31,639 nucleotides of DNA from a virus (IMGVR_UViG_3300030389_001568:1-31639), one strand, 5' to 3'. Shown: positions 931 to 30,074, counted from the first letter of the stretch. Numbers and translations: made by a program. Notes: generated from the sequence alone by a model not told the origin.

Positions 931-1434
931 ATGCATAAAAATATATTAACAGAACAAGCCTTATATTATGGCGATGTAAAAATGCCTAAAGGTTTTGAAA
1001 TTAATCATCATAAATTAAAATCCGAAATTTTACAATCAAAAATTGAAAATCGTGATTTTAGATTTTGTAAAGATTGGGATAAATTAAATACTTTTATTAG
1101 AGAACATATCTATCTTAAATTTAAGATTGCATTAATTAATAAATCAACATGGGGAAATTTATTTAAACCATTAACAAATACTGAATCTTTATTAGAAGTT
1201 AATTTAATGGATCTTAAACATGCTCCTGACTTTGTATTATTATATGGAGTACAAGTAAAAGATTGTTTAATAAAAATATTTTATGATAATAACAGAAGAA
1301 AAGGAAACTGTTGGGATATAGAACTTAAAAATAATATGTTTATAATGTTTCCTTCGACTAATACATATACTATTCATAATAAAAAAAATGATGATTTAAA
1401 TATTATTCAAACAATAACTTATGAATATACTTAA
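931..1434 (+). CDS. Hypothetical protein, possible degenerate dioxygenase-fold relative
   Basis: 167 aa, after a 43-nt AT-rich gap (888-930) without a Shine-Dalgarno sequence. The C-terminal third, FIMFPSTNTYTIHNKKN then LNIIQTITYEYT, has the layout of the last strands of a 2OG-Fe(II) dioxygenase core: a FPS turn, a His, then a closing beta-strand. I find no HxD pair before it and no distal Arg in the usual place, so if it is a relative it is probably catalytically dead or binds something else. It overlaps the next gene by 14 nt and heads the dioxygenase block. Codon use is extremely AT-rich, like its neighbours. The fold assignment is inference and would need structure prediction. Confidence 0.5.
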   Translation: MHKNILTEQALYYGDVKMPKGFEINHHKLKSEILQSKIENRDFRFCKDWDKLNTFIREHIYLKFKIALINKSTWGNLFKPLTNTESLLEVNLMDLKHAPDFVLLYGVQVKDCLIKIFYDNNRRKGNCWDIELKNNMFIMFPSTNTYTIHNKKNDDLNIIQTITYEYT

Positions 1435-2053
1435 TCATTATTGGTGGTTTAAATCAGCAATACCTCCTAGAGTTTGCGATGATATAATTAGATATGGATT
1501 ATCTAAATCTGAATCTATGGCTCTTACTGGTGATTACCAAGAAAAAAAATTAACAAACGATCAAATTAGAGATTTAAAAAGAAAAAGAAATTCAGATTTA
1601 GTTTGGCTTGACGATCATTGGATATATAAAGAATTACATCCATTTATTCATAGTGCAAACAAATCTGCTGGTTGGAATTTTGATTGGGATAGGTCAGAAT
1701 CCTGTCAATTTACAAAATATAAATTAAATCAATATTACGATTGGCATCAAGATTCATGGGATAAACCTTATGATAGACCAGGTAAACCTGATCATGGAAA
1801 AATTAGAAAACTATCTATGACTTGTCAATTAACAGATGGATCTGAATATGAAGGTGGCGAATTAGAATTTGATTTTAGAAATTATGATCCACATATGCGA
1901 GATGATTCTAAACATAGAATACAATGTAAAGAGATATTACCAAAAGGATCTATTATTGTATTTCCTAGTTTTGTTTGGCATAGAGTTAAACCTGTAACAA
2001 AAGGAGTTAGATATTCATTAGTTATGTGGAATATTGGATATCCTTTTAGATAA
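1421..2053 (+). CDS. 2-oxoglutarate/Fe(II)-dependent dioxygenase, PKHD hydroxylase type
   Basis: 210 aa with the most complete prolyl-4-hydroxylase-like core in the block: YYDWHQDSWD supplies H109 and D111, FPSFVWHRVKPV supplies the distal H187, and GVRYSLVMW supplies R197, which would bind the 2OG carboxylate. EGGELEF (144-150) and GSIIVFPSF are the usual surrounding strands. The family couples 2OG decarboxylation to hydroxylation of a protein, peptide or small molecule. The substrate is unknown; the position between tail fibre and tail-tube-side genes suggests a virion or cell-surface target. The start overlaps the previous gene by 14 nt without a Shine-Dalgarno sequence, suggesting coupled translation. 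First of five consecutive relatives. Confidence 0.85.
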   Translation: MNILNHYWWFKSAIPPRVCDDIIRYGLSKSESMALTGDYQEKKLTNDQIRDLKRKRNSDLVWLDDHWIYKELHPFIHSANKSAGWNFDWDRSESCQFTKYKLNQYYDWHQDSWDKPYDRPGKPDHGKIRKLSMTCQLTDGSEYEGGELEFDFRNYDPHMRDDSKHRIQCKEILPKGSIIVFPSFVWHRVKPVTKGVRYSLVMWNIGYPFR

Positions 2054-2054
2054 C

Positions 2055-2684
2055 ATGATAATAAATGAATATTTTAAAACACCTTTCTGGATAATAGAAA
2101 AACCAGAATTTATAACATCTCTAAATAATGCTTCTAACAAATATATAAAAGAAGCCAAAAAAATAGAAAAAAATTATATAAAAAAATATGGAGATTTTGG
2201 AAGAAGTTATCATTCAACACAACTTACATTAGATAATGATTTTTTAGATTTTAGAAATTTTATTGGTCAAAAATCTTGGGAATTTTTAAATTGGCAAGGT
2301 TTTGATATGTCAGAATATACAACTATATTTTCTGAGTTATGGGTACAAGAGTTTTCTAAAAAAGGTGGTGGTCATCATTCTGCACACATACATTGGAACC
2401 AACATGTATCAGGTTTTTATTTTTTAAAGTGTAGTGATAAAACTTCTTTTCCAGTATTTCATGATCCAAGGACTGGTGCACGAGCTACAAAGTTAAAATT
2501 AAAAAATCAAAATAGTATTTGTTACGGAACTGAATTAGTAAATTTTAGATTAAAACCTGGATCTTTAATTATATTTCCAGGGTATTTAGAACATGAGTTT
2601 GCAGTAGATCATGGTATAGAACCTTTTAGATTTATACATTGGAACATACAAGCTCTTCCAAAAGGAACAACTAAAGATGTTTAA
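2055..2684 (+). CDS. 2OG-Fe(II) oxygenase-like protein (TIGR02466 / 2OG-FeII_Oxy_5 type)
   Basis: 209 aa from ATG 2055, one base after the previous stop. An upstream in-frame TTG at 2034 lies inside the previous gene and is less likely. The sequence HHSAHIHWNQHVSGFYFLK (107-125) matches the H-x-H...SG(V/F)YYL pattern of the TIGR02466 family; LEHEFAVDHG (179-188) gives the distal H180 and PFRFIHWN gives R192. The proximal site reads H111-x-H113 instead of the HxD of the other members, so the metal ligands differ or the family uses another residue. It overlaps the next gene by 8 nt. The fold is clear; catalysis and substrate are inferred from family membership only. Confidence 0.75.
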   Translation: MIINEYFKTPFWIIEKPEFITSLNNASNKYIKEAKKIEKNYIKKYGDFGRSYHSTQLTLDNDFLDFRNFIGQKSWEFLNWQGFDMSEYTTIFSELWVQEFSKKGGGHHSAHIHWNQHVSGFYFLKCSDKTSFPVFHDPRTGARATKLKLKNQNSICYGTELVNFRLKPGSLIIFPGYLEHEFAVDHGIEPFRFIHWNIQALPKGTTKDV

Positions 2685-3186
2685 TAATATATTTTATAAA
2701 ATTAATTTAAGTTGGACTAATAAATTTGTTAAAGATAATATAACAAATATAGAAAAAAATTATAGTTTGTATCCAAATAATAACAGATGGGAATGTAATT
2801 GTCATACTATCCATGATAATGATGAAAAAGTATATCCTATTAATTATGTTTTTTTGAGAAAAGAATATGAAAAAATAGCTGTTGAAGTTTGTAAAAATTA
2901 TAATATCAACAAATATTATTTAAGTGATATATGGTATAACTATTACAAAAAACAACAATACCAAGAGCCACATATCCACGATGGAAATGGTGGATTAACA
3001 GCAGTTCATTATTTAATATTTGATGCAAAAAAACATTCAAAAACTTGTTTTAATAATATAGAATCACCAAATATTGACGAGGGAGATATTTTATTTTTTC
3101 CAGATAATTTAGAACATTTTGTTCCCGAAAATAAAACAGATAGTCCAAGATTAACTGTAGCTTTTACAATAACAAAAATTAATTAA
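2677..3186 (+). CDS. 2OG-Fe(II) oxygenase-like protein
   Basis: 169 aa. QEPHIHDGNGG (96-106) carries H99, H101 and D102; LFFPDNLEHFVPEN (139-152) gives the distal H147; SPRLTVAFTI gives R158 on the closing strand. This is the double-stranded beta-helix order seen in phage 2OG oxygenases. As in the preceding gene, HxH replaces HxD, with an Asp directly after. There is a weak AAGGAA about 12 nt upstream of the ATG. The gene is among the most AT-rich in the window, with many AAA, AAT and TTT codons. Substrate unknown. It ends one base before the next ATG. Confidence 0.65.
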   Translation: MFNNIFYKINLSWTNKFVKDNITNIEKNYSLYPNNNRWECNCHTIHDNDEKVYPINYVFLRKEYEKIAVEVCKNYNINKYYLSDIWYNYYKKQQYQEPHIHDGNGGLTAVHYLIFDAKKHSKTCFNNIESPNIDEGDILFFPDNLEHFVPENKTDSPRLTVAFTITKIN

Positions 3187-3187
3187 T

Positions 3188-3673
3188 ATGAGTTTTAAAA
3201 TAATAGATAATTATTTAAATAAAGATGATCATTCTTTATTAAAAACAATAATGGAATCTGATAACTTTCCTTGGTTTTTCAACGATTTTAAAATTAGAAA
3301 AGGTGAAAATAAATTGTTTTCATATCAATTTGTTCATATATTTTATATTAATGATAATATTAATTCTGATTATTTTAAAAGATTAGAACCTTTGTTAAAA
3401 AAAATAGATTATAAATCTTTGATAAGAATAAAAGCTAACTTAAATCCTATATCAAATGAATTAATTGAATTTGATAAACATACAGATCAAAATTTTAAAT
3501 GTAAATCAGCTATATATTATGTTAATAATAATAATGGTTTTACAATTATAGATGGTAAAAAAATAGAAAGTAAAAAAAATAGGATTGTTTTTTTTGATTC
3601 ACAAACAAAACATTATGGTACAAATAGTACAAATTGTAATAATAGAATGGTAATTAACTTTAATTATTTTTAA
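3188..3673 (+). CDS. 2OG-Fe(II) dioxygenase, prolyl 4-hydroxylase-like
   Basis: 161 aa, compact. FDKHTDQNFKCKSAIYYVN (95-113) supplies H98 and D100; IVFFDSQTKHYGTNST (133-148) supplies the distal H142; NNRMVINFNYF supplies R153. The set HxD...H...R is intact. The N-terminus, MSFKIIDNYLNKDDHSLL, resembles the start of many phage dioxygenases of this kind, which open with a short strand and a helix. No Shine-Dalgarno sequence is present. The next ATG overlaps the TAA by one base (TAATG), so translation is probably coupled. The substrate cannot be deduced; small members like this are often annotated only as oxygenases. Confidence 0.75.
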   Translation: MSFKIIDNYLNKDDHSLLKTIMESDNFPWFFNDFKIRKGENKLFSYQFVHIFYINDNINSDYFKRLEPLLKKIDYKSLIRIKANLNPISNELIEFDKHTDQNFKCKSAIYYVNNNNGFTIIDGKKIESKKNRIVFFDSQTKHYGTNSTNCNNRMVINFNYF

Positions 3674-16650: not shown

Positions 16651-17408
16651 TGAGTGATAAAGAAATAGCTAAAAAATCAAAAACTGATATTGCAAATTTA
16701 TCAGATGATTTAATTTTAGCGAGTGCAGGTAAAGGGTTACAAAATATAAGTAACGATGATGTTACTATACCTAGACTTGCAATAGTACAATCTGGTTCGC
16801 CTCAACGTAAAAAGAAAGATGAAAAATACATTGATGGCGCAGATGAAGGTATGATATTCAATACTGTTACTAATGAATTATATAAAGATAGTTTAGAAGT
16901 AATACCATGTGGGTATCGTAAAACATATGTAGAATGGGTACCTAGAGATAAAGGTGGCGGACTTGTAGCAGTTCATGATTATAAACCTGAAAAAGCTATA
17001 ACAGATCCTAAAACTAGAAAGACTATGTTAGGCGAAAATCAAATAGTTGATACAGCTGAACATTTTGTTTTAGTTAAAACTTCTCAAGGTTATTCACCTG
17101 CTGTATTGACTATGACATCTAGTAATCTTGGAGTTTCAAGAAAGTGGAACACACTTCTTAAAATGAAAAGATTAAATGTAAAGGGTCAAACTGTTGAAGC
17201 ACCTTCTTTTTTATATAAGTTTAAATTGTCTACAGTAGAAGCTGAAAACGATTTAGGTAACTGGCATAAATATAAAATCGAAGAAGCAGGCCAAATTGAA
17301 AGTAAAGATATTTTCAAAGAGGGAGAAGCATTAGCTGATTCAGTAACAACTGGTAAAGTTAAAGCTTCAGAGCCAACAGAAACTTCTGGAGAAGATGCAC
17401 CATTCTAA
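16650..17408 (+). CDS. Single-stranded DNA-binding protein-like
   Basis: 252 aa with GGAAAGGAG upstream. A core with DVTIPRLAIVQSGSPQRKKK (37-56), aromatic and basic strands (GYRKTYVEWVPRD) and TMTSSNLGVSRKWNTLLKMK suits an OB-fold binder. The C-terminal 30 residues are acidic and low in complexity and end in SGEDAPF. This closely resembles the acidic DDxPF tail of bacterial SSB, which recruits replication and repair enzymes, and the acidic aromatic tail of T7 gp2.5. The role in coating single strands is inferred from the tail and from the primase gene that follows with a 14-nt overlap. Confidence 0.6.
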   Translation: MSDKEIAKKSKTDIANLSDDLILASAGKGLQNISNDDVTIPRLAIVQSGSPQRKKKDEKYIDGADEGMIFNTVTNELYKDSLEVIPCGYRKTYVEWVPRDKGGGLVAVHDYKPEKAITDPKTRKTMLGENQIVDTAEHFVLVKTSQGYSPAVLTMTSSNLGVSRKWNTLLKMKRLNVKGQTVEAPSFLYKFKLSTVEAENDLGNWHKYKIEEAGQIESKDIFKEGEALADSVTTGKVKASEPTETSGEDAPF

Positions 17409-18900
17409 ACTTTTTCAGATTTTTCCAGGTTTACATCGGGCTTATGGTCATTTCTTTATAACAGAAAGAAAAGGACCTAAGCTTGATGGCTATGGTAAAA
17501 CAATAAGAGAAAAGTATGTTGAAGACTTATGGGTACAACACCTAACTGGTAAAACTGGATTAGGTGTTATACCTATTAATGAAGATAATAAGTGTAAATG
17601 GGGTTGTCTAGATGTTGACGATTACTCAGTAAATATAGAAAAAATTTCAAAACAATTTGTAAAAAAAAATTTAATAGTATGTAGATCAAAATCAGGTGGT
17701 GCTCACATATTTATTTTTACTAAAAAATTTGTATCTGCAAAATCAATGATTGATAAGCTTAAAGCTATTGCTAAAGCTTTTGGTTTTGTAAAATACGATT
17801 TAAGACCACAACAAACTCAATTATTAAACGATGACGATGTAGGAAGTTGGCTTAATATGCCATACTTTAATGGAGATGAAACAGATAGATATGCTTTATA
17901 TGATGGTAAAGCTCTATCATTAGAACATTTTTTACAATGGGTAGATAAGTTTGCAGTAAATTCTTTAGATGAAATTAAATTAGATTTTATAAAAAAAGAA
18001 AATAAATCAAACGAAATACTCCCGGGAGGACCGCCTTGTTTACAAGATTTACTTTCTCAAGGTGCTTTAGGAGAAGGTGGTAGAAATAATGGATTATTTA
18101 ACATAGGTGTTTATTTAAGAAAAAGATTTCCAGAAGATTGGCAAGAAAAGTTAGAAGAATATAATGATGAATACATTGATCCACCATTAAAGCCAAGAGA
18201 ATTTACAACAGTATTAAATAGTTTAGATAAAAAGTCTTACAATTATAAATGTAAAGATAGTCCTATTAATTCAGTTTGTAATAAAACTAAATGTTTAACA
18301 TGCGAATATGGAATTAGCGATGATGGTACTATGCCTGTTTTAAATAGTATAACTAAAATCCTAACTAATCCACCACAATATTTTTTAACATTAAATGAAA
18401 GAAAGATTGGTCCACTTGCTAGTAAACAAATTTATAATTTTATGGATTTTAAACAAGTTGTGTTTGAAAATTTAGATATGTTACTTCCTAAAATTAATGA
18501 CAAGCTATGGACAGAATCAGTAAATGATTTAATGTCTAGAGTTATTACTGTAGAAGCACCAAAAGACAGTAGTAACGAAGGTAGATTATTAGATTTACTA
18601 GAAAGATTTTGTACTGGTTCTACTTCATCAACAGAAGTAGAAGATATATTAAGAGGTAAAGCTATTGTAAATTCTACACATACAGAATTTAGAATAAATG
18701 ATTTAATGGAATTTTTAGATAGACATAGATTTAAAGAATTTAAATTAAATGAAATTACAGCATATCTTAAAAATTTAGGAGCAGAACATTCTGGTAAAAA
18801 AATTAAAGGTAAATTTATGAATGTATGGTCTATAAAAAATTTTAGTGTACAAGACGAAGAATTTACTCAACCTAAAATAGAAAAGGAGGCATATGAATAA
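17395..18900 (+). CDS. Archaeo-eukaryotic-type primase (PrimPol-like)
   Basis: 501 aa. KWGCLDVDDYS (68-78) has the metal-binding D73-x-D75, and SKSGGAHIFIFT (98-109) has the SxH-type motif with H104, the signature of AEP primases. GEGGRNNGLFNIGVYLRKR (227-245) is the PriCT-type helical segment that follows such cores. A Cys set, C286-x8-C295-x4-C300-x2-C303, could hold zinc or an Fe-S cluster. The C-terminal part has no Walker motifs, so this is not a primase-helicase fusion. It should make primers for the PolA-type polymerase encoded at 25830. The gene overlaps the SSB-like gene and ends in a strong ribosome binding site for the next one. Confidence 0.85.
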   Translation: MHHSKLFQIFPGLHRAYGHFFITERKGPKLDGYGKTIREKYVEDLWVQHLTGKTGLGVIPINEDNKCKWGCLDVDDYSVNIEKISKQFVKKNLIVCRSKSGGAHIFIFTKKFVSAKSMIDKLKAIAKAFGFVKYDLRPQQTQLLNDDDVGSWLNMPYFNGDETDRYALYDGKALSLEHFLQWVDKFAVNSLDEIKLDFIKKENKSNEILPGGPPCLQDLLSQGALGEGGRNNGLFNIGVYLRKRFPEDWQEKLEEYNDEYIDPPLKPREFTTVLNSLDKKSYNYKCKDSPINSVCNKTKCLTCEYGISDDGTMPVLNSITKILTNPPQYFLTLNERKIGPLASKQIYNFMDFKQVVFENLDMLLPKINDKLWTESVNDLMSRVITVEAPKDSSNEGRLLDLLERFCTGSTSSTEVEDILRGKAIVNSTHTEFRINDLMEFLDRHRFKEFKLNEITAYLKNLGAEHSGKKIKGKFMNVWSIKNFSVQDEEFTQPKIEKEAYE

Positions 18901-21403: not shown

Positions 21404-22462
21404 ATGAAAGCATTAGGAACATACATTTTTGCAGGAGGTTTTACTCTTGGTGTTAAAAAACATTTTGATATAGAAGCACATTTTGAAAGTAAACCAGGAT
21501 TATATAAAAAAACATTTAAAGCTAATTTTCCAAAAATACCAGTTTATGAAGGTGAAGATGATTGGCCTATAGAAAAATATAAAAATAAAATAGATTTTGT
21601 ATATTGTAATCCACCATGTGCGCCTTGGTCTAATTTAGGTGGTGCTCAAAAAGGTGCGGGAGCATGGAAAGATGATCCTAGAATTAAATGTTGGAGAGAT
21701 AGTTTTGATTTATTAAGAAAGATAGAACCTAAAGCTATTGCAATTGAATCGGTTCCTAGAGTTTATAGCAAAAATGGCGGTAGACCGATGATCATGGACT
21801 TAACTAAAAAAGCAAATTACTTAGGTTATCAAGTTACTCATTTACTAATTGATGGTGGTTTTACAGGATTAAATCATTCAAGAAAAAGATTTTTCTTTAT
21901 AGCAACTAAATATGATTTAAATGCAGGAGGTTTAAACTTTCAACCTTTACCAACTGCAGGTGAAGTATTAGGCTCTTTTAAAAAAGAACATGGAAAAGAT
22001 ATTGGTCATTTGATGAAATTAGGAGAAAACGAAAAACCTTATCTTAAACATTGTAAACAAGGAGAAAGTTTAAGAGTTACATGGGAAAGATATAATCCAC
22101 CAGAAACTTGGGTAAGAGGAGGTATGCGTGGAGGAGTTAAAGGTAGACCACAATTTATGAAATGGAGATTAAAATCAGATGCTCATATACCAGTTATTGC
22201 TGGAGGATTTTATATACATCCTACAGAGGATAGATTATTTGGTCATAAAGAATTAGCTTATATGGCAGGGTATCCAGTAAATTACAAATGGGAAGGACCT
22301 GCTTCATCTATCGGATCACAAATTGCAAGAGGTGTAATGCCACCTGTCGCTGAATATGTAGCAAGAATAATAAAAAATAGTATTAAAGAAAAAGTAAAGA
22401 CTAAAGAAGAATTAAAAATAGTAGATTATAGAAAGGTACCAGAACAAGAAGCTTTACTATGA
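21404..22462 (+). CDS. DNA cytosine-5 methyltransferase
   Basis: 352 aa, 18 nt after the helicase, with AAAGAAAGAA upstream. FAGGFTLGVKKHFDIEAHFE (9-28) is motif I/II for S-adenosylmethionine; FVYCNPPCAPWSNLGG (65-80) is motif IV with nucleophile C72; AIAIESVPR (111-119) is motif VI with E115 (ESV for the usual ENV); HSRKRFFFIA (158-167) is motif VIII; and IARGVMPPVAEYV near the end is motif X. A complete C5-MTase with a variable region that should set the target. The recognition sequence is not deducible. No restriction gene is adjacent, so protection from host enzymes or entry into a hypermodification route are both possible. Confidence 0.88.
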   Translation: MKALGTYIFAGGFTLGVKKHFDIEAHFESKPGLYKKTFKANFPKIPVYEGEDDWPIEKYKNKIDFVYCNPPCAPWSNLGGAQKGAGAWKDDPRIKCWRDSFDLLRKIEPKAIAIESVPRVYSKNGGRPMIMDLTKKANYLGYQVTHLLIDGGFTGLNHSRKRFFFIATKYDLNAGGLNFQPLPTAGEVLGSFKKEHGKDIGHLMKLGENEKPYLKHCKQGESLRVTWERYNPPETWVRGGMRGGVKGRPQFMKWRLKSDAHIPVIAGGFYIHPTEDRLFGHKELAYMAGYPVNYKWEGPASSIGSQIARGVMPPVAEYVARIIKNSIKEKVKTKEELKIVDYRKVPEQEALL

Positions 22463-22989
22463 ATAAAAAACAATTAAAAAAATTTATAGAAGAAAGAACT
22501 TTATCTACACCAATTAGTGAATATGAAAAAAGTTTAGATCAAAAAGATCAGTTTGCTTGTATGGATTGTGATACTTTAATTCAAGATATTGATGCTTTTC
22601 ATAAAAAATTTATGTTTGAAAAAAATGAAAAAGTTGGTATTCCAGATAATAATGAACTCGTAAATTTTAGAACATCTTTTTTAATGGAAGAACTTGCAGA
22701 ATATACACAAGCAATAACTAAAAAAGATGCAGCAGGAGCATTAGATGCTCTTGTAGATATAGTTTATATTGCTTTAGGTACTGCTTGGCTTTTTAATTTA
22801 CCATTTGAAAGAGCATGGAGACAAGTGCAAAAAGCTAATATGAGTAAAATAAGAGCTAAAAGTAAATCAAAAAAACGAGGTACATCATTTGATGTAGTTA
22901 AACCTAAAGGTTGGATTGCACCAGATATTGAACAAATAATAGAAGAAGAAAGGGAAAAACAAAATGAAAATATTAGTAACAGGGTTTAA
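22459..22989 (+). CDS. MazG-like nucleotide pyrophosphohydrolase
   Basis: 176 aa; ATGA overlap with the methyltransferase. Residues 66-120 form an all-alpha NTP-PPase core: FLMEELAEYTQAI has E77, E78 and E81, and ALDALVDIVYIALGTA has D96 and D100, the EExxE and D...D magnesium site. The N-terminal 60 residues carry a C34-x2-C37 pair of unknown use. Such enzymes split NTPs or dNTPs into NMP and pyrophosphate. Among C5-MTase, glycosyltransferase, kinase and hydroxymethylase genes, a dCTP/dUTP-cleaving role like that of T4 gp56 is plausible; ppGpp or housekeeping NTP hydrolysis cannot be excluded. Confidence 0.8.
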   Translation: MNKKQLKKFIEERTLSTPISEYEKSLDQKDQFACMDCDTLIQDIDAFHKKFMFEKNEKVGIPDNNELVNFRTSFLMEELAEYTQAITKKDAAGALDALVDIVYIALGTAWLFNLPFERAWRQVQKANMSKIRAKSKSKKRGTSFDVVKPKGWIAPDIEQIIEEEREKQNENISNRV

Positions 22990-24010
22990 TGCTTTATCAA
23001 TTGGTACAGCAAGATCACCATTAAATATAGCATCATCTGCTAGAATTTTACCAAAAGTTTTAGAAGAATTAGGACATGAAGTAATTCAAAAAGCTATTAT
23101 CCCGGGAGAAGATGTATCTATGTATGATAAAGTTTTTGTATTTGTATTTGGTCCAAATAGTTTATCAGCAAGATATTGGTATGGTGCTGCATATACAATT
23201 ATAAAAAGACCTGATGCAATAGTTTCTATTGACGATTGGCAAACTAAAGATTCAGTAAGTGGATTTAGAACATTTAGTAATGGTCATTGGAGAATATGGA
23301 AAAAAGTTTCTAAAGCAGGTAATCCTGTAGGCAAAGTTAATTGGGACGAGGCTCAACCATATAAAAAAGAGATTGAAGATTTAGTTGATCATTTTGCTCA
23401 TAAAGAATGGCCACACAAACTTTTAATACCAGCATATGATGGTGGTAATTACGATGAATTAGGTATAAAAGCTAAAGAAATTGTCAATTGGGATCCATCT
23501 GCATATACAGATACATATTTAAAAAGTCCTGATAATCAAGAAGATTTATTAGCAAGTTTTGCACCAAATGATGGAATAAAAGAAAATGCGTGGATTTGTG
23601 CTAGTCTTGTAAGTAAACAAGGTTGGCTGAATGGTCAAAATTTTAAATGGCGAGTTAAAACTTTTGGTAATCAAAGAGAAGGTCAAACTAGATTAAAAGA
23701 ACACGAAATGTTTCAAGAGTATAGAAAAGTATGGGGGATAATAAGTCCTCCGCATTATCATACAGCTAAAGGATCGGGTTGGTGGAGAGTAAGATATAAA
23801 ATGGCATTAGATGCTAAATGTATAGTTTATGCTCACCCTGAAGAAGCTAAAATTTTAGGTTTAAATTGTGATTTAAATAAAATAGAAAATTCTAATAAAG
23901 AAGAATTATTAAATATTTCAAGAGAGCATATGGATACTTTAAAAGTTAAATTTTGGAATAGAGAAAGAACTAAAGAATTTTTTAAATGTTTATTAGAGGA
24001 AAAATCTTAA
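22964..24010 (+). CDS. GT-B fold glycosyltransferase, possible DNA glucosyltransferase
   Basis: 348 aa, overlapping the MazG-like gene by 26 nt. The N-terminal MKILVTGFNALSIGTARSPL, followed by ILPKVLEELGHEV and YDKVFVFVFGPNSL, is a Rossmann half like that of T4 beta-glucosyltransferase. The C-terminal KGSGWWRVRYKMALDAKCIV (269-288) and the closing helices (ELLNISREHMDTLKVKFW) have the donor-binding layout of GT-B enzymes. SIDDWQTKD (88-96) is a second conserved-looking patch. No membrane segment is present, so a soluble acceptor is likely. Placement among nucleotide-modification genes suggests transfer of sugar to hydroxymethylated DNA; polysaccharide or protein acceptors remain possible. 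The similarity is at fold-pattern level only. Confidence 0.65.
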   Translation: MKILVTGFNALSIGTARSPLNIASSARILPKVLEELGHEVIQKAIIPGEDVSMYDKVFVFVFGPNSLSARYWYGAAYTIIKRPDAIVSIDDWQTKDSVSGFRTFSNGHWRIWKKVSKAGNPVGKVNWDEAQPYKKEIEDLVDHFAHKEWPHKLLIPAYDGGNYDELGIKAKEIVNWDPSAYTDTYLKSPDNQEDLLASFAPNDGIKENAWICASLVSKQGWLNGQNFKWRVKTFGNQREGQTRLKEHEMFQEYRKVWGIISPPHYHTAKGSGWWRVRYKMALDAKCIVYAHPEEAKILGLNCDLNKIENSNKEELLNISREHMDTLKVKFWNRERTKEFFKCLLEEKS

Positions 24011-24543
24011 TTGTAGAAGGACCAGATGGTGTAGGTAAAACTACATTAATTAATAGAATAAAAGAAAAATTTAAAAATAATTTCTACATGCATTTAAGAG
24101 TGCATAAAAATATGAAATTATGGCATACTGCAACTGTTAGATTAGCTATAAAAAAACAAATGCTTGGTAAATTAGTTTTATTAGATAGACATTGGCCAAG
24201 CGAACAATGTTATTCTTACATAAGAAGTAATGGACCTAGTTATAATCCAAGACAATTATATAATATTTTAAAAGATAGAGGTGCTAAATATGTTTGGTGT
24301 ATTCCAGAAGATAGACAAAGAGTTAAAGAAAATCATAGAATTAATAGAGAATTGCGACATGAAGAATATCATGATATTGATAATGTTATTGATGATTATT
24401 ATTTTTCATGGTTTGGTAAGTGTAAGCGAAATAATTTTTTGACTACGCTATCGCCGTTGAGTAACAGAAAAGATTTTATAAGATATGATTTATTTAAAGA
24501 CGGTCATAAAATGGACGCATTTATTGATAAGATATTAAATTAA
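23986..24543 (+). CDS. P-loop deoxynucleoside monophosphate kinase (thymidylate kinase-like)
   Basis: 185 aa, start overlapping the glycosyltransferase by 25 nt. KILIVEGPDGVGKTTLINRI (6-25) is Walker A with K18; LVLLDRHWPSEQCYSY (63-78) holds the DR(Y/H)xxS motif with D67-R68; and ENHRINRELRHEEYHD is a lid-like basic segment. This is the thymidylate-kinase fold, reading shorter than bacterial Tmk. In the T4 scheme gp1 phosphorylates hydroxymethyl-dCMP, dTMP and dGMP. Next to the hydroxymethylase-like gene (TAATG overlap) such a substrate is likely. It could also be a plain dTMP kinase. Confidence 0.8.
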   Translation: MFIRGKILIVEGPDGVGKTTLINRIKEKFKNNFYMHLRVHKNMKLWHTATVRLAIKKQMLGKLVLLDRHWPSEQCYSYIRSNGPSYNPRQLYNILKDRGAKYVWCIPEDRQRVKENHRINRELRHEEYHDIDNVIDDYYFSWFGKCKRNNFLTTLSPLSNRKDFIRYDLFKDGHKMDAFIDKILN

Positions 24544-25379
24544 TGAAAGATATAAATTCACGATATAAGAAAATGTTATGGGATGTATATCGTCAGCCTG
24601 ATTTTATTTGTAAACCTAGAGATTTAAAAATAAGTGAAAAGATAAATCATACTTGGAAAGTTGATATGGATGATCCTATTATTACTTTACCAGAGAGAAA
24701 ATTATCTTATCCATTTATGTTTGGTGAAGCTACATGGATGCTTCAAGGTAAGAACGATGTAGAAAGTGTAAGTAAATATGTAGGTGGTATTAAAAGATTT
24801 AGTGATGATGGTGAAACTTTTTTTGGTGCCTATGGTCCTAAAATTATTACTCAATGGGGTTATGTAGTTAAAACATTAATAAATGATCAAGATAGTAGAC
24901 AAGCAATAATAAGTATATGGAGAGAAAATCCAAGATCAAGTAAAGATATTCCATGTACTTTAACATTACAATTTTTTTTAAGAGAAGCAAGCGATCAATT
25001 ATGGTTACATACTATTGCTAATATGAGAAGTAACGATGCATGGTTAGGTGTACCATATGATACTTTTAATTTTAGTGCTATTTCTTTTTTTATTGTATTA
25101 CATTTAAATAAATTAGGAATAAAATGTAAATTAGGTGAATTAACTATTCAAGCAGGTAGTAGACATATTTACGAAACAGATTACTCAAAACTTGATAAAA
25201 TTTTTGCATCTGATTTTCATGATGAAAGCGAAATATCTTTAAATAATTTAATTGATAAATATTCTAATGACCCTAAAAAATTTATAGATATACTACAAGA
25301 AATGGCAGATTTAGAAGGTACAGAGCTTAGACTTAATGGTATGTTATCAGAAAGGCTTAATTACCTTCTTCATGGATAG
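24543..25379 (+). CDS. ThyA-family enzyme, predicted dCMP hydroxymethylase
   Basis: 278 aa. Thymidylate-synthase-family landmarks: E62 (GEATWMLQG), R119 (DSRQAIISIW), nucleophile C138 (IPCTLTLQFF), NMRSNDAWLGVPYDTFNFS (160-178) with D165, and GSRHIYETDY with H208 and Y210. At the position of E. coli ThyA N177, which reads the uracil ring, this protein has D173 in VPYD. T4 dCMP hydroxymethylase has Asp there too (D179), and Asp favours cytosine. MRSND is also shared with T4 gp42. I predict 5-hydroxymethyl-dCMP from dCMP and methylene-tetrahydrofolate. ThyA-like tryptophans before the GxYG segment are not conserved. Ordinary dTMP synthesis is the alternative. Confidence 0.8.
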   Translation: MKDINSRYKKMLWDVYRQPDFICKPRDLKISEKINHTWKVDMDDPIITLPERKLSYPFMFGEATWMLQGKNDVESVSKYVGGIKRFSDDGETFFGAYGPKIITQWGYVVKTLINDQDSRQAIISIWRENPRSSKDIPCTLTLQFFLREASDQLWLHTIANMRSNDAWLGVPYDTFNFSAISFFIVLHLNKLGIKCKLGELTIQAGSRHIYETDYSKLDKIFASDFHDESEISLNNLIDKYSNDPKKFIDILQEMADLEGTELRLNGMLSERLNYLLHG

Positions 25380-25830
25380 ACCACCTGTAGATTTTTATTT
25401 TTTAAGAATGGCATTTTTAGTTTCAGAAAGGGGAACGTGTGCGAGAAGAAGGGTTGGTTGTGTTTTCGTAAATAAGAGAAATCATGTTATTGCAACTGGA
25501 TATAATGGAGCGCCTAGTGGTTTTAAACATTGTATAGATAACCCTTGCAATGGAACAAAATTTAAATCAGGCGAAGGTTTAGAAGAATGTGAAGCTATTC
25601 ATGCAGAACAGAATGCTATCTTACAATGTAAAGATGTCTACGACATTGACAGGGTTTATACTACACTTGAACCTTGCGTCCATTGTATTAAACTTCTACT
25701 TAACACTTCAGCAAATCAAATTATATATGGTGAACAATATGTACACGAGAAAGCAAGAAATTTATGGAAGATGTCAGGAAGAGGTTACACTTTTATAGAT
25801 AAGAAAGTATTAGAAGATAAATTAAATTGA
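25372..25830 (+). CDS. dCMP deaminase
   Basis: 152 aa from ATG 25372, which overlaps the previous stop by 8 nt; an upstream in-frame ATG at 25336 lies deeper in the previous gene and adds non-family residues. CARRRVGCVFVNK is the usual first strand; AIHAEQNAI (75-83) has the zinc ligand H77 and catalytic E79; and TLEPCVHCIK (98-107) has C102 and C105. Additional Cys and His residues in KHCIDNPCNG may form the second structural site of phage deaminases. It converts dCMP to dUMP, balancing pyrimidine pools. Beside the hydroxymethylase-like gene, both enzymes would compete for dCMP, as in T4. Confidence 0.93.
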   Translation: MDRPPVDFYFLRMAFLVSERGTCARRRVGCVFVNKRNHVIATGYNGAPSGFKHCIDNPCNGTKFKSGEGLEECEAIHAEQNAILQCKDVYDIDRVYTTLEPCVHCIKLLLNTSANQIIYGEQYVHEKARNLWKMSGRGYTFIDKKVLEDKLN

Positions 25831-27683
25831 TGTTTAACACTAATAAAATTGACGAAGCAACTTATATTGCTATTGATACTGAAACACACGATCCTAGATT
25901 AAAAACACATGGACCTGGTGGATTTAGAAAAGATGGTTTTGTTGCAGGTATTTCTATTGCAACAGATAATGGTCTTAATGAATATTTACCAATAAAACAT
26001 CAAGGAGGTGGTAATTTAGATTCAGAAAAAGTAATTAGATTTATTAAATACATTTATAATAAATGTGAAGAAAAACGATTTCCAATGATATTTGCTAACG
26101 CAATGTATGACGTAGAGTGGCTTTATTCACTGGATAATAGACTTGCGCTTACTAAGAGTCACAGGGTTTTCGACATTCAAACTATAGAGCATTTAATAGA
26201 TGAAAATAAATTAAAGTATTCATTAGATTCACTTGCTAAGTTTTATTTAAGAAAATCTAAGTATGAAGTTGAATTAGAACAAGCAGTGTTAGCAAAGTTT
26301 GGTAAACGTGCAAAAGTAAAAGAAAGTTTATGGAGATTACATGCAAACGAAGTTGCAGAGTATGCGAAAGCAGATGCACAATTAACATTAGATATTTTTT
26401 TAAAACAACAAACTAGAATTAAAAGAGAGCAAATAGAAAGTATTGTTGATTTTGAATCAAGACTTATTCCTTTATTATTTCATATGCGTAAAGGTGGAGT
26501 AAGGGTAAACATTTCTAGAGCTGAAGAATTGTATGATGAATTAGAAAAAAAACAACAAGATCATCAATCAATACTAAATAGACTTGGAGGAAGTGAAGTT
26601 AATGTATGGGCAAATGCTTCACTAAAACAAGCATATGATAATAATTCGATTAAGTATAACCACACAGCAAAAGGAACTCCGAGTTTCACTGCGAGTTGGT
26701 TGGAAACTCAAAATGATGACGTTTCTAAAACTATATTACAAATAAGAAAGTTAGACAAAATTAGAAATACATTTATTAAAAACATGATATTGGATAAAGC
26801 TAAAGATGGTAGAATTTATTGTAGTTTTAATCCTATGGGTACTGTTACAGGTAGATTTAGCTCTCAGTATCCTAATCTACAACAAGTGCCTGCTAGAGAT
26901 CCAGAACTTGGTCCGATGATCAGAAGTTTGTTTTTACCAGAAGAAAATCATGATTGGGTTGCTTGTGACTATGCTCAACAAGAACCAAGGGTTTTAGTAC
27001 ATTATTCTAGTTTAAAACTTATGGATTCAGCGATGGCTATGCAAAAAGAATATCTTAACAATCCTAGAACAGACTTTCATTCTATGGTTGCTACGATGGC
27101 AAGTATACCTAGAAAACAAGCAAAGACTATTAATTTAGGTTTATTCTATGGTATGGGAAATAAAAAACTTGCATCAGAATTAGGGTTAGAACTAGATCAA
27201 GCTTATGATCTTTTTAATAAGTATCATTCTAAAGTACCATTTGTAAAAGAATTATCTAAACAAGTTTCACATGTAGCTAGTACAAGAGGTTACATAAAAA
27301 CTTTATTAGGTAGAAAAAGAAGATTTGAATTATGGGAACCTAGAGATGAATGGGGTTCAAAAGCATATCCTTTATCAGAAGCACATATACATTATCCTAA
27401 AACAGAACTTAAAAGAGCTTACACTCATACAGCATTAAATGCTTTAATTCAAGGTAGCTCTGCTGATATTACAAAAGCAGCAATGTTAAAGATATGGGAA
27501 GATGGTTATTTAGATTATATTGATTTAAAACTTACAATTCATGATGAATTAGATTTTTCAGTTGATCAGTTACAACAAAAATGTTTAAATGAAGCTATAC
27601 ATTGTATGAAAAATTGTGTACAAATAGGAGTGCCTTTAGAAGTAGATGTAGAGAAAGGAAGTAATTGGGGCACAGCAAAATAA
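25830..27683 (+). CDS. Family A DNA polymerase with 3'-5' exonuclease
   Basis: 617 aa from ATG 25830, which shares a base with the previous TGA. Exonuclease: YIAIDTETHDP with D16 and E18, NAMYDVEWL with D94, and EYAKADAQLTLD with D182. Polymerase: motif A, WVACDYAQQEPRVL (D380); motif B, RKQAKTINLGLFYGMG (428-443, K432); motif C, LTIHDELDF (568-576, D572-E573). No 5'-3' exonuclease domain is present, as in other phage PolA enzymes. The residue matching E. coli F762 is L436, a type associated in viral surveys with slower or temperate-type phages. It would replicate the genome and must accept any hydroxymethylated dCTP made by the neighbouring enzymes. Confidence 0.96.
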   Translation: MFNTNKIDEATYIAIDTETHDPRLKTHGPGGFRKDGFVAGISIATDNGLNEYLPIKHQGGGNLDSEKVIRFIKYIYNKCEEKRFPMIFANAMYDVEWLYSLDNRLALTKSHRVFDIQTIEHLIDENKLKYSLDSLAKFYLRKSKYEVELEQAVLAKFGKRAKVKESLWRLHANEVAEYAKADAQLTLDIFLKQQTRIKREQIESIVDFESRLIPLLFHMRKGGVRVNISRAEELYDELEKKQQDHQSILNRLGGSEVNVWANASLKQAYDNNSIKYNHTAKGTPSFTASWLETQNDDVSKTILQIRKLDKIRNTFIKNMILDKAKDGRIYCSFNPMGTVTGRFSSQYPNLQQVPARDPELGPMIRSLFLPEENHDWVACDYAQQEPRVLVHYSSLKLMDSAMAMQKEYLNNPRTDFHSMVATMASIPRKQAKTINLGLFYGMGNKKLASELGLELDQAYDLFNKYHSKVPFVKELSKQVSHVASTRGYIKTLLGRKRRFELWEPRDEWGSKAYPLSEAHIHYPKTELKRAYTHTALNALIQGSSADITKAAMLKIWEDGYLDYIDLKLTIHDELDFSVDQLQQKCLNEAIHCMKNCVQIGVPLEVDVEKGSNWGTAK

Positions 27684-27686
27684 ATT

Positions 27687-28967
27687 ATGAATATTGGATT
27701 TTTAGGACTAGGAAAACTAGGTTTACCTGTAGCACTAGCAGTCGAAAGTAAAGGCCACAATGTTTTTGGTACAGATATTAATGAAACAACTTTAAGAAAT
27801 ATAAGATTTAAAACACTCAATTATAAAGAAAAAGGTGCTCAAGAGCTATTAAATAATTCTAAAATACAAATAAAAAATATTGAGCAAATTGTATCTGACT
27901 CTGATATAATTTTTGTCCCTATTCAAACACCTCATGATGAAAAATACGAAGGTATAACAAGAATACCAAAAGAAAGAAAAGATTTTAATTATGAATTTTT
28001 AAAAAATGGTGTTAAAGATTTAAGTGATGAAATAGAAAAACAAGGAAAAGATAAAGTTGTAGTAATAATTTCTACAGTTTTACCTGGAACTATTAGAACT
28101 CATATAAAACCTATTTTAAGTAAGCATGTAAAACTTTGTTATAATCCATATTTTATAGCTATGGGTACAACGATTGATGATTTTTTAGGAGCAGAAATAA
28201 ATTTATTTGGTGTTGATGATGAAGAGGCTGCAAATAAAGCAGAAGAATTTTATAAAACAGTAAATAAATCTCCATTCTTTAAAACTACAATTGAAAATGC
28301 AGAACTAATTAAAGTTGGATATAATACTTTTATTTCTACTAAAATTGCAATGATTAATACTTTAATGGAAACATGTCATAATTTGCCTAACACTAATATT
28401 GACGACATCAGTAAAGCTTTTTCTTTATGCGATACAAGATTAATTAGTGATAAATATTTATATGGTGGTATGGGAGATGGAGGAGGTTGTCATCCCCGGG
28501 ATAATATAGCTTTAAGTTATTTAGCTAAAAAATTAAATGTATCATATAATTGGTATGAAGGAATTATGTCACAAAGAGAAAAACAAACTGATTGGTTAGC
28601 TGATTTAATTGTTAGTGAAAAGTTTGAAATGGATATAAATATTTTAGGTAAATGTTTTAAACCAGAAACAAATTTAACATTAGGTAGTCCATCAATATTA
28701 CTTAAAAATATTTTAGAAGAAAGAGGAGAAAGAGTAAAAATGTGGGATCCTTATGTTGATTCAATTGATATGAAAAATGTTTCTCAAGAAATGGAATGGG
28801 AAACTAAACCACAATTATTCTTTATTGGTACTAAACACGAGGCTTTTAAACACTTTTATTTTTATCCTAATTCGGTAGTCATTGATCCATTTAGGTATCT
28901 TAAATTAGGAAATGAAGTTAAATATATTCCTATTGGAGACAATACATGGAAGCAAAAGACAGAGTAA
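27687..28967 (+). CDS. UDP-glucose/GDP-mannose dehydrogenase family protein (nucleotide-sugar dehydrogenase)
   Basis: 426 aa. MNIGFLGLGKLGLPVALAV is the NAD-binding GxGxxG strand with D30 at the end of the second strand. IISTVLPGT is the family STVxPGT motif. ENAELIKVGYNTFIS gives K209 and N213, and GDGGGCHPRDNIAL gives nucleophile C268 and D272, spaced as in UDP-glucose dehydrogenases (K-N-C-D). The reaction is a two-step oxidation of a UDP-hexose to a UDP-hexuronic acid using two NAD+. The donor sugar could feed the phage glycosyltransferase or alter the cell envelope. Only 3 nt separate it from polA, and it overlaps nadE by 22 nt, tying it to NAD+ supply. Confidence 0.88.
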   Translation: MNIGFLGLGKLGLPVALAVESKGHNVFGTDINETTLRNIRFKTLNYKEKGAQELLNNSKIQIKNIEQIVSDSDIIFVPIQTPHDEKYEGITRIPKERKDFNYEFLKNGVKDLSDEIEKQGKDKVVVIISTVLPGTIRTHIKPILSKHVKLCYNPYFIAMGTTIDDFLGAEINLFGVDDEEAANKAEEFYKTVNKSPFFKTTIENAELIKVGYNTFISTKIAMINTLMETCHNLPNTNIDDISKAFSLCDTRLISDKYLYGGMGDGGGCHPRDNIALSYLAKKLNVSYNWYEGIMSQREKQTDWLADLIVSEKFEMDINILGKCFKPETNLTLGSPSILLKNILEERGERVKMWDPYVDSIDMKNVSQEMEWETKPQLFFIGTKHEAFKHFYFYPNSVVIDPFRYLKLGNEVKYIPIGDNTWKQKTE

Positions 28968-29722
28968 AGATAATAACCGATTGGATAAAAGACTATGTTG
29001 AGAGTATGGATACTCCAGCTAATTGTTTAGTTGTAGGAGTTTCTGGTGGAATTGATTCATCAGTAGTTTCTACATTGTGTGCACGTACTGGAATAAAAAC
29101 ACTCGTAGCTTCCATGCCAATATCTCAAAGACCCGAGCATCATGATTTATCTATTAAACATAAAAATTGGCTTACAAGTAAATATCAAAATGCTTATGGT
29201 GTAGAAATAGATTTAACTGGAGCATACTTATCTTTTGAAAATATTTTAACTGATAAAAAATTTACTTCTGATTTAGGTTTAGCAAACTCAAAAGCAAGAT
29301 TACGAATGATGACTTTATATCAAATATCTGCGAGTACATCAGGTTTAGTTGTAGGTACAGGTAATAAAGTGGAGGACTTTGGTGTTGGTTTTTATACAAA
29401 ATATGGTGATGGTGGTGTTGATATATCACCTATCGCTGATTGTAATAAAAGTCAAGTATGGGCTATGGGTAAAGAGTTAGGTATTTTAGAGGAGATACAA
29501 ATGGCTGAACCTACTGATGGTTTATGGTCTGATGGTAGAACAGATACAGATCAATTAGGTATGAGTTATAAAGAGATAGAACATTTAATGTCTAGACCAG
29601 ATGAAGTTGGTTATGATAAGTATCTTGCAATTAGAAAGAAGAATTTGCATAAGATGAAACCAATCCCTGTATGTAAATTTGATGGAAAAGACACTCTGGA
29701 CACAGATCAGAAAGAAACTTAA
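28946..29722 (+). CDS. nadE: NH3-dependent NAD+ synthetase
   Basis: 258 aa. LVVGVSGGIDSSVVSTL (28-44) is the PP-loop (SGGIDSS) that binds ATP. ANSKARLRMMTLYQIS is the NadE helix pattern, VVGTGNKVEDFGVGFYTKYG the nicotinate adenine dinucleotide site, and PTDGLWSDGRTDTDQLG the mobile loop of NadE. It lacks the glutaminase domain, so it uses ammonia. It amidates NaAD to NAD+. Length is typical of ammonia-type NadE (about 270 aa). The gene overlaps the dehydrogenase upstream by 22 nt and the nuclease downstream by 41 nt. It could sustain NAD+ for the dehydrogenase or offset NAD+ depletion by host defence. Confidence 0.93.
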   Translation: MEAKDRVKIITDWIKDYVESMDTPANCLVVGVSGGIDSSVVSTLCARTGIKTLVASMPISQRPEHHDLSIKHKNWLTSKYQNAYGVEIDLTGAYLSFENILTDKKFTSDLGLANSKARLRMMTLYQISASTSGLVVGTGNKVEDFGVGFYTKYGDGGVDISPIADCNKSQVWAMGKELGILEEIQMAEPTDGLWSDGRTDTDQLGMSYKEIEHLMSRPDEVGYDKYLAIRKKNLHKMKPIPVCKFDGKDTLDTDQKET

Positions 29723-30074
29723 AAATTTTTTTATACAAAGAATTGAAACACAAATAGAACGAGGGATCCCTGATGTTCACTACGTTACTTATGGTGGTCA
29801 TTGTGGTTGGATAGAAGGTAAATTTGTTAAAACACCTAAAAGAAGAAAGACAAAAATTAAAGTTGGTCTTTCTATTGAGCAACTAGCTTGGCATAAATCA
29901 TACGAATTTTATGGTGGTAAAGTATTTATACTTGTAAAAAAAGATAGAGATGTTTATTTATTTTATGGTAAAGATGGAGAAACATTAGCTAAAGGTGTTA
30001 CACTAGAAGATTTTAATAAATATAGTATAACTAAAGATTGGAACAATATAGAAAATTTTTTGTCGAATAACTAA
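29682..30074 (+). CDS. VRR-NUC type nuclease
   Basis: 130 aa from ATG 29682; an in-frame TTG one codon earlier is less likely. ERGIPDVHYVTYGGHCGWIE (26-45) followed by GK gives E26, D31 and the E45-x-K47 catalytic set of the PD-(D/E)XK VRR-NUC domain, with Q67 in SIEQLAWHK and KVFILVKK as the closing strand. These stand-alone domains are common in tailed phages and cut branched or flap DNA. The 41-nt overlap with nadE is long, but the N-terminal helix would be lost if a later start were used, so I keep this start. Confidence 0.85.
   Translation: MEKTLWTQIRKKLKNFFIQRIETQIERGIPDVHYVTYGGHCGWIEGKFVKTPKRRKTKIKVGLSIEQLAWHKSYEFYGGKVFILVKKDRDVYLFYGKDGETLAKGVTLEDFNKYSITKDWNNIENFLSNN

Follow-up and report, generated by a model that had tools for sequence, protein, structure and literature searches.

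The viral contig IMGVR_UViG_3300030389_001568, a 31.6 kb sequence that is the entire IMG/VR record and is referred to here as the window, carries a + strand gene cassette that probably serves to make DNA containing glycosylated 5-hydroxymethylcytosine (hmC). On the sequence evidence, the sugar would derive from a phage-encoded UDP-glucose 6-dehydrogenase homologue (UGD), and the phage most likely infects SAR11. Gene identities, a conserved gene order, the Asp and Thr specificity residues of a ThyA-family enzyme, the predicted GT-B fold of a glycosyltransferase (GT), and the linkage of that GT with Asp-type ThyA and a sugar-nucleotide enzyme all come directly from our computations. A preliminary description had placed seven genes at 21404-27683, from a methyltransferase to a DNA polymerase, with every junction overlapping. 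The seven open reading frames are indeed uninterrupted and lie at those positions, and all adjoining frames overlap, by between 1 and about 45 nt. The unit does not end at 27683, where that description closed it, but continues into three further genes:

21404..22462, + strand: C5-cytosine DNA methyltransferase (C5-MTase); PF00145, 5.4e-27
22459..22989, + strand: MazG/PRA-PH all-alpha NTP pyrophosphatase, proposed dCTPase; PF01503, 5.6e-13; PHROG 671
22964..24010, + strand: GT-B-fold glycosyltransferase, proposed hmC glycosyltransferase; no Pfam match; PHROG 14998, unknown function
23986..24543, + strand: P-loop thymidylate-kinase-like (d)NMP kinase, proposed 5-hydroxymethyl-dCMP (hm-dCMP) kinase; weak match to Thymidylate_kin PF02223, 7e-7; PHROG 761
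24543..25379, + strand: predicted ThyA-family pyrimidine hydroxymethylase; PF00303, 3e-17; Cys138, Thr139, Asp173
25357..25830 (start possibly 25336), + strand: dCMP deaminase; PF00383, 1e-20; PHROG 174, 7e-39
25827..27683, + strand: family A DNA polymerase (PolA) with 3'-5' exonuclease domain; PF00476, 8e-72
27687..28967, + strand: UGD, proposed sugar-donor supply; PF03721/PF00984; PHROG 9148, 7e-82; NCBIfam NDP-sugDHase over cut-off
28946..29722, + strand: NadE, NAD+ synthase (ammonia-dependent), proposed to provide UGD with NAD+; PF02540, 6e-46; NCBIfam nadE over cut-off
29679..30074, + strand: VRR-Nuc-type gene, last in the conserved unit, without a claimed role in the system; PHROG 2165, 2e-24

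Together these genes form a single run on the + strand (21404-30074) in which almost all neighbors overlap; UGD begins directly past PolA, and NadE overlaps UGD. Searches with the GT and ThyA proteins gave more than 20 IMG/VR contigs that keep the cassette order at about 50-97% protein identity, so that we do not attribute it to chance. Wherever a window-clade contig is long enough to show it, UGD adjoins PolA; NadE follows in most, and the VRR-Nuc gene occupies the same place in the relatives. The C5-MTase is likewise kept at the same position, both in the window clade and in a sister clade described below. The PF01503-type pyrophosphatase belongs to a Pfam domain that co-occurs with modified-cytosine contigs in MetaGPA (PMC8670742).

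The ThyA-family protein points to cytosine as the modified base. Its Asp173 (PYD173) aligns with the T4 gp42 Asp (T4 Asp179, E. coli position 177), which bears out the cytosine-type Asp of the preliminary description, and its Thr139 (PCT139) occupies E. coli position 147, where T4 gp42, also reading CT, likewise lacks a His. At these aligned positions, E. coli thymidylate synthase (TS) has His147 and Asn177. Both Asp173 and Cys138 are invariant across 15 aligned ThyA-family sequences, and an RSND motif is common to the window protein and T4 gp42. Asp at 177 has been tied to dCMP specificity, and in MetaGPA no other pair of positions distinguishes modified from unmodified phage contigs as well as 147 and 177 (PMC8670742). 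A PDB profile search with the window protein returned the CMP 5-hydroxymethylase MilA first (1e-30), with thymidylate synthases at 2e-10 or weaker. By its fold, Cys, Asp, and non-His residue at 147, the protein belongs with the T4 gp42-type dCMP hydroxymethylases. We infer, rather than read from these residues, a hydroxymethyl and not a methyl product, because an Asp at this position fits either. As a baseline, the window ThyA protein has matches at 1e-5 in 741 of 50,697 phage records. The cultured pelagiphages HTVC200P and HTVC119P have homologous ThyA proteins, and the Asp was confirmed in HTVC200P.

The HTVC200P gene itself, labeled 'thymidylate synthase' (locus L032, 8354-9172), has a kinase homologue upstream of its cytosine-type Asp enzyme and resides in a culturable phage. 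Asp-type ThyA cassettes with no match to the GT occur in AXL3 (L040), PW916 (L041), and ct3Et533 (L039). Upstream of the pyrophosphatase, AXL3 and ct3Et533 encode a class I methyltransferase, and PW916 has a gene annotated as a methyltransferase; these cassettes could cap hmC differently.

A second line of evidence is the company that the GT keeps. A degenerate scan with G[STV][GN]WWRxR[YPF] yielded 457 confirmed GT relatives in IMG/VR viral contigs, the best 80 of which were kept. A ThyA-family gene with Asp is present at 67 of 81 viral GT loci, and one with Asn at 0 of 81. Where at least 2.5 kb was available on both sides, 52 of 56 GT loci have an Asp-type ThyA and 48 of 56 have UGD, UXS, or UDP-galactopyranose mutase (UGM), although these counts are not independent, as some contigs are near-copies. 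The 48 loci divide into UGM (20), UGD (19), UXS (6), and UGD with UXS or a UXS-like epimerase (3). Among annotated phages, DSL-LC01, ctIqW946, and Gordonia phage Mareelih combine the GT with an Asp-type ThyA in their genomes, and Aeromonas 60AhydR15PP and Erwinia FBB1 each encode two ThyA paralogues, a normal thymidylate synthase with Asn and a gp42-like one with Asp.

Donor genes sort with the phylogeny of the GT into a UGD clade, a sister UXS clade, and a UGM clade. The sister clade (G021, L073-L079) has a GT about 50% identical to that of the window; UGD and NadE gave no match in it, and a UXS gene, identified by the human UXS1 structures (3e-88), lies upstream in seven of its eight loci. 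In T4-like and other phages, UGM flanks the GT, often with a GalE-like epimerase. On a GT tree of 76 distinct sequences, drawn from the window, the surveyed loci, and eight additional records, donor-gene labels change 12 times, versus 40 in shuffles; the tree is quick and has long branches, which makes its deep branching uncertain, and the clustering is inflated by near-copies. In ct3Et533, the pyrophosphatase, kinase, hydroxymethylase, deaminase, PolA, and VRR-Nuc genes are kept, and the GT, UGD, and NadE are all absent together. Because the donor gene tracks the GT clade and ct3Et533 lacks these three genes as a set, UGD is most simply read as the source of the GT's sugar donor.

From this pattern we tentatively propose, at slightly less than an even chance, that these GTs make up a large and as yet unnamed group of phage enzymes that glycosylate hmC, in which an exchangeable neighboring sugar-nucleotide enzyme sets the sugar. 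Under that proposal, the sugar would be an oxidized one in SAR11 phages (glucuronate (GlcA) or the product of an unusual UGD), xylose in the sister clade with UXS, and galactofuranose where T4-like phages have UGM together with a GalE-like epimerase. At six loci (L087, L097, L112, L113, L119, and L124), a GalE-like epimerase, the GT, and UGM stand in a row with a gp42-type ThyA, and the gene content predicts galactofuranosyl-hmC in these phages. A distant homologue in Morganella phage Rgz1 adjoins an arabinose-5-phosphate isomerase.

In sequence comparisons, the GT matches no Pfam family, and no PDB sequence at E-values as high as 1. Against T4 BGT, hhalign gave a probability of 4% and blastp no significant match, and hhalign against RB69 ORF003c gave 0.1%, which rules out membership of either family by sequence. 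An AlphaFold (AF2) model built from 17 sequences (pLDDT 79, pTM 0.79) predicts, with moderate confidence, a GT-B fold. Foldseek matched this model to GT-B enzymes in the PDB, with GtfA first, T4 BGT (1j39) second (E=1.2e-4), and T4 AGT entries lower; the TM-score to T4 BGT, 0.54, is the highest among the listed matches. The comparison with BGT and AGT that had been suggested at the outset thus favored a shared fold, and the sequence searches did not extend this to homology. Asp91, Trp274, Arg275, Arg277, and Glu294 are invariant in a 12-sequence alignment of the family.

UGD has the three-domain architecture of its family, with PF03721 and PF00984 over cut-off and PF03720 just below, and in an active-site alignment it keeps the catalytic Cys268, Lys209, Asn213, and Thr130. 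At the same 1e-5 baseline, it has matches in 28 of the 50,697 phage records. NadE retains the SGGIDS PP-loop and the conserved NadE motifs, with PDB NadE matching at 6e-32, and its closest bacterial relatives are SAR11 nadE genes, up to 65% identical. In SAR11 HTCC9565, nadE lies in a housekeeping context beside cysS-like and DAHP-synthase-like genes, and no UGD match was found near bacterial nadE at any of 80 loci. Sequence relationships suggest that the phage nadE is probably a captured host gene. The recurrence of NadE-UGD pairs led us to consider whether NadE might instead act as an amidotransferase recruited to form a uronamide. We rejected this; given its intact NadE motifs and its closeness to SAR11 nadE among bacterial genes, NAD+ supply is the simpler role. 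Host UXS as a route to UDP-xylose in the window clade was also set aside, as 100 Pelagibacter genomes gave no UXS match at 1e-60 in a search made without a positive control. The sugar is probably UGD-derived, and probably GlcA.

We infer from these observations each reaction of the pathway, the sugar and its linkage, the base present in virions, and any benefit to the phage. The MazG enzyme would convert dCTP to dCMP, and the ThyA-family enzyme would convert dCMP to hm-dCMP, whose phosphorylation the kinase would begin; the deaminase would divert dCMP to dUMP for dTTP. PolA would incorporate hm-dCTP, and the GT-B enzyme would glycosylate hmC in the DNA afterwards. The phage UGD would oxidize UDP-glucose, most simply to UDP-glucuronate, with phage NadE feeding it NAD+, and the GT would take the UGD-made sugar rather than simply host UDP-glucose. 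The preliminary description had proposed dCMP hydroxymethylation followed by hmC glycosylation, and the specificity residues, the GT-B fold, and the GT/Asp-type ThyA linkage favor both steps; the T4-like glucose it implied is not favored.

Several observations weigh against this pathway. The GT model is of moderate quality, with residues 10-20 below a pLDDT of 50, and also resembles antibiotic glycosyltransferases, of which GtfA holds PDB rank 1. The C5-MTase is without a clear role in a phage with modified cytosine. UGD occurs without a NadE match in L029/L071 (one contig), L080, and L081, and phage C48C1 has a GT homologue (L044, 10001-11035) and UGM with no PF00303 match in its genome. The window-clade UGDs read NP[YF]FIAMGT, so that Tyr or Phe replaces the Glu of the NPEF motif (residue 155, human E161), a Glu that we take to matter for thioester hydrolysis. 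This Glu is also replaced in the UGDs of HTVC008M, Bellamy, and LR756502; it is kept in those of SP-15, L095, and SfFS3, and six of six SAR11 UGDs checked keep NPEFLREG. Because the NPEF Glu is absent, the phage UGD product may not be UDP-GlcA. Such a dehydrogenase is, moreover, already encoded by 88 of 100 Pelagibacter genomes, and supply alone therefore fails to explain the phage UGD; it may make a product that the host does not. Finally, SAR11 genomes rarely carry restriction-modification, with one in more than 100 reported (PMC7029224), so that protection from restriction is a weak motive.

These points bear on three other explanations of the cassette. The sugar might be glucose, as in T4, with UGD and NadE serving host surface glycans, redox, or similar functions. 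T4 BGT and AGT, the DNA-modifying structural relatives of the GT, do use UDP-glucose, and NadE-UGD pairs in HTVC008M and cyanophages lie in glycan-type clusters, HTVC008M having no PF00303 match; yet UGD tracks the GT clade, UXS replaces it in the sister clade and UGM elsewhere, and ct3Et533 is without GT, UGD, and NadE together, and we regard glucose as unlikely. It is quite unlikely, in our judgment, that the DNA contains 5-methylcytosine (5mC) or unglycosylated hmC and that the GT acts on another acceptor such as lipopolysaccharide (LPS) or protein. The position of the GT inside a nucleotide/polymerase operon, the Asp-type enzyme at 52 of 56 informative loci, the leading TM-score of T4 BGT among the listed matches, and the rank of a hydroxymethylase as closest PDB match of the ThyA protein all argue for glycosylated hmC instead. 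On the other side, work cited in PMC8670742 is described there as turning TS into a dCMP methylase by N229D, Xp12 DNA contains 5mC (PMC7653180), LPS has been proposed as the target of pelagimyophage GTs (PMC7029224), and ct3Et533, AXL3, and PW916 have the nucleotide genes with no match to the GT.

The ThyA protein could also make dTMP or 5-hydroxymethyl-dUMP, in which case the deaminase and kinase would contribute to thymidine supply or to a modified thymine. Both the dCMP deaminase and the thymidylate-kinase-like gene flank the ThyA gene, the homologues in PW916 and Agathobaculum are annotated as deoxyuridylate hydroxymethyltransferases, and HTVC023P-type pelagiphages are reported to have TS plus aG/PT-PPlase (PMC9599517). 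However, Asp173 and Thr139 are the cytosine-type pair, T4, a cytosine-modifying phage, likewise has a deaminase and kinase, and no aG/PT-PPlase family was found among the nine cassette proteins scanned (the genome being incomplete). A thymidylate or dUMP role is accordingly very improbable, and a glycosyl-hmC pathway with a UGD-derived sugar remains the reading that we prefer.

The assignment to SAR11 derives from a captured gene and a polymerase rather than from infection data. The 80 nearest bacterial relatives of the window NadE, at 53-65% identity, are named Pelagibacteraceae, Pelagibacterales, or Alphaproteobacteria, and HTVC023P and HTVC027P are among the phages nearest in PolA; on these grounds, the host is probably SAR11. 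At the DNA level, the only match to isolates is a nadE stretch of HTVC008M. The window is probably a genome fragment. Contigs of 39.7, 52.3, and 56.3 kb carry the same block beside related structural genes; end repeats are absent from the two longest of these, and none of the three is known to be complete. A podophage label is plausible, given ejection-protein and structural PHROGs, portal and major head genes in relatives, and no tape measure noticed. The claim that such a gene set is unusual in a podophage is partly right, and is tempered by the gene order of ct3Et533, the ThyA proteins of HTVC200P and HTVC119P, and published hypermodification genes (PMC9599517).

Some further features of the window and its relatives stand apart from the pathway. 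The + strand, which carries most genes, is 11.7% cytosine and 17.6% G. Four adjoining genes in the tail region (1421-3673) match 2OG-Fe(II) oxygenases (PF13640, PF13759; the last slightly below cut-off), and comparable sets are reported in HTVC023P-type pelagiphages. A TET-like route to hmC through these genes was considered and discarded, as they match 2OG-FeII_Oxy_3/_5 rather than TET/JBP and lie ~18 kb from the cassette. Directly after VRR-Nuc, locus L003 encodes an additional NAD-dependent epimerase (17099-17926; UDP-glucose 4-epimerase-like); L070 and L080 have genes resembling it. The 56 kb relative (G002) encodes a NodU/TobZ-type carbamoyltransferase (L063, 15627-17072), a type of enzyme that carbamoylates hmC in MetaGPA contigs (PMC8670742).

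If the proposed pathway is correct, the glycosylated cytosine of ocean phages bears sugars that have not previously been observed in DNA, attached by an enzyme family that current libraries leave unnamed (no Pfam entry, PHROG 'unknown function'). Its members would place chemically distinct sugars on hmC, and the neighboring donor enzyme would predict the sugar. As far as the literature searched shows, hmC bearing glucuronosyl, xylosyl, or galactofuranosyl groups would have no precedent as a DNA base. Why phages should modify their DNA when their hosts almost never carry restriction-modification would then become a question; one possible answer is that the modification marks their own DNA against the phage nucleases that recycle host DNA.

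Glycosylated hmC in T4, arabinosylated cytosine in RB69 (PMC6024577), deoxypentose-modified cytosine in Thanatos (PMC12838424), carbamoyl-hmC in MetaGPA contigs (PMC8670742), glucuronate in SP-15 DNA (PMC5977210), and hypermodification genes in HTVC023P-type pelagiphages (PMC9599517) are already known. In the openly readable literature, we found no report of the GT family or its link with exchangeable donor enzymes, nor any joining UGM with hmC phages, and a GT family with exchangeable donor genes appears to be new.

The window resembles T4 in the gp42-type Asp, Cys-Thr, and RSND motifs of its ThyA protein and in the roles represented, namely NTP pyrophosphatase, hydroxymethylase, deaminase, kinase, polymerase, and GT-B DNA glycosyltransferase. 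The proposed mirroring of T4 holds for roles and not for detail, as only gp42 is shown to be homologous. The window genes form one overlapping operon, whereas T4 genes 56, b-gt/42, and 43 lie apart; its polymerase belongs to family A and that of T4 to family B; its GT has no sequence similarity to BGT, and its MazG protein has no blastp match to gp56. The window also has its own UGD and NadE, and a C5-MTase instead of Dam. RB69 and its relatives share the use of a non-glucose sugar on modified cytosine, with sugar-nucleotide supply genes proposed, but the window GT has no similarity to ORF003c, and UGD and NadE replace the RB69 module. Shewanella phage Thanatos has a cytosine-linked sugar, a phage UDP-sugar enzyme (TH1_063), and a hydroxymethylase-like gene; its donor-supply route differs, and no shared GT has been shown.

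Bacillus phage SP-15 provides a precedent for a phage UGD tied to DNA hypermodification, including glucuronolactone, although it modifies uracil (dihydroxypentyl-U), keeps the canonical UGD motif, and uses a different gene cluster. The MetaGPA 5-carbamoyloxymethylcytosine contigs, which were selected for modified cytosine, share an Asp-type TS, a PRA-PH pyrophosphatase, and a dCMP deaminase with the window, but their hydroxymethyl group is capped by carbamoyl and not by a sugar. HTVC023P-type pelagiphages are SAR11 podophages with a related PolA, a TS near the polymerase, and, in some, a putative hmC glucosyltransferase; they differ in having TS plus aG/PT-PPlase, and the main text of PMC9599517 does not mention UDP enzymes, NAD synthetase, or deaminase. 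HTVC023P itself has no such cassette near PolA. Although the groundwater podovirus ct3Et533 (MW202510) has no match to the GT, UGD, or NadE and carries a class I (Methyltransf_23) methyltransferase instead of the C5-MTase, it keeps the NTP pyrophosphatase, kinase, Asp-bearing hydroxymethylase, deaminase, PolA, and VRR-Nuc genes in the same order as the window.

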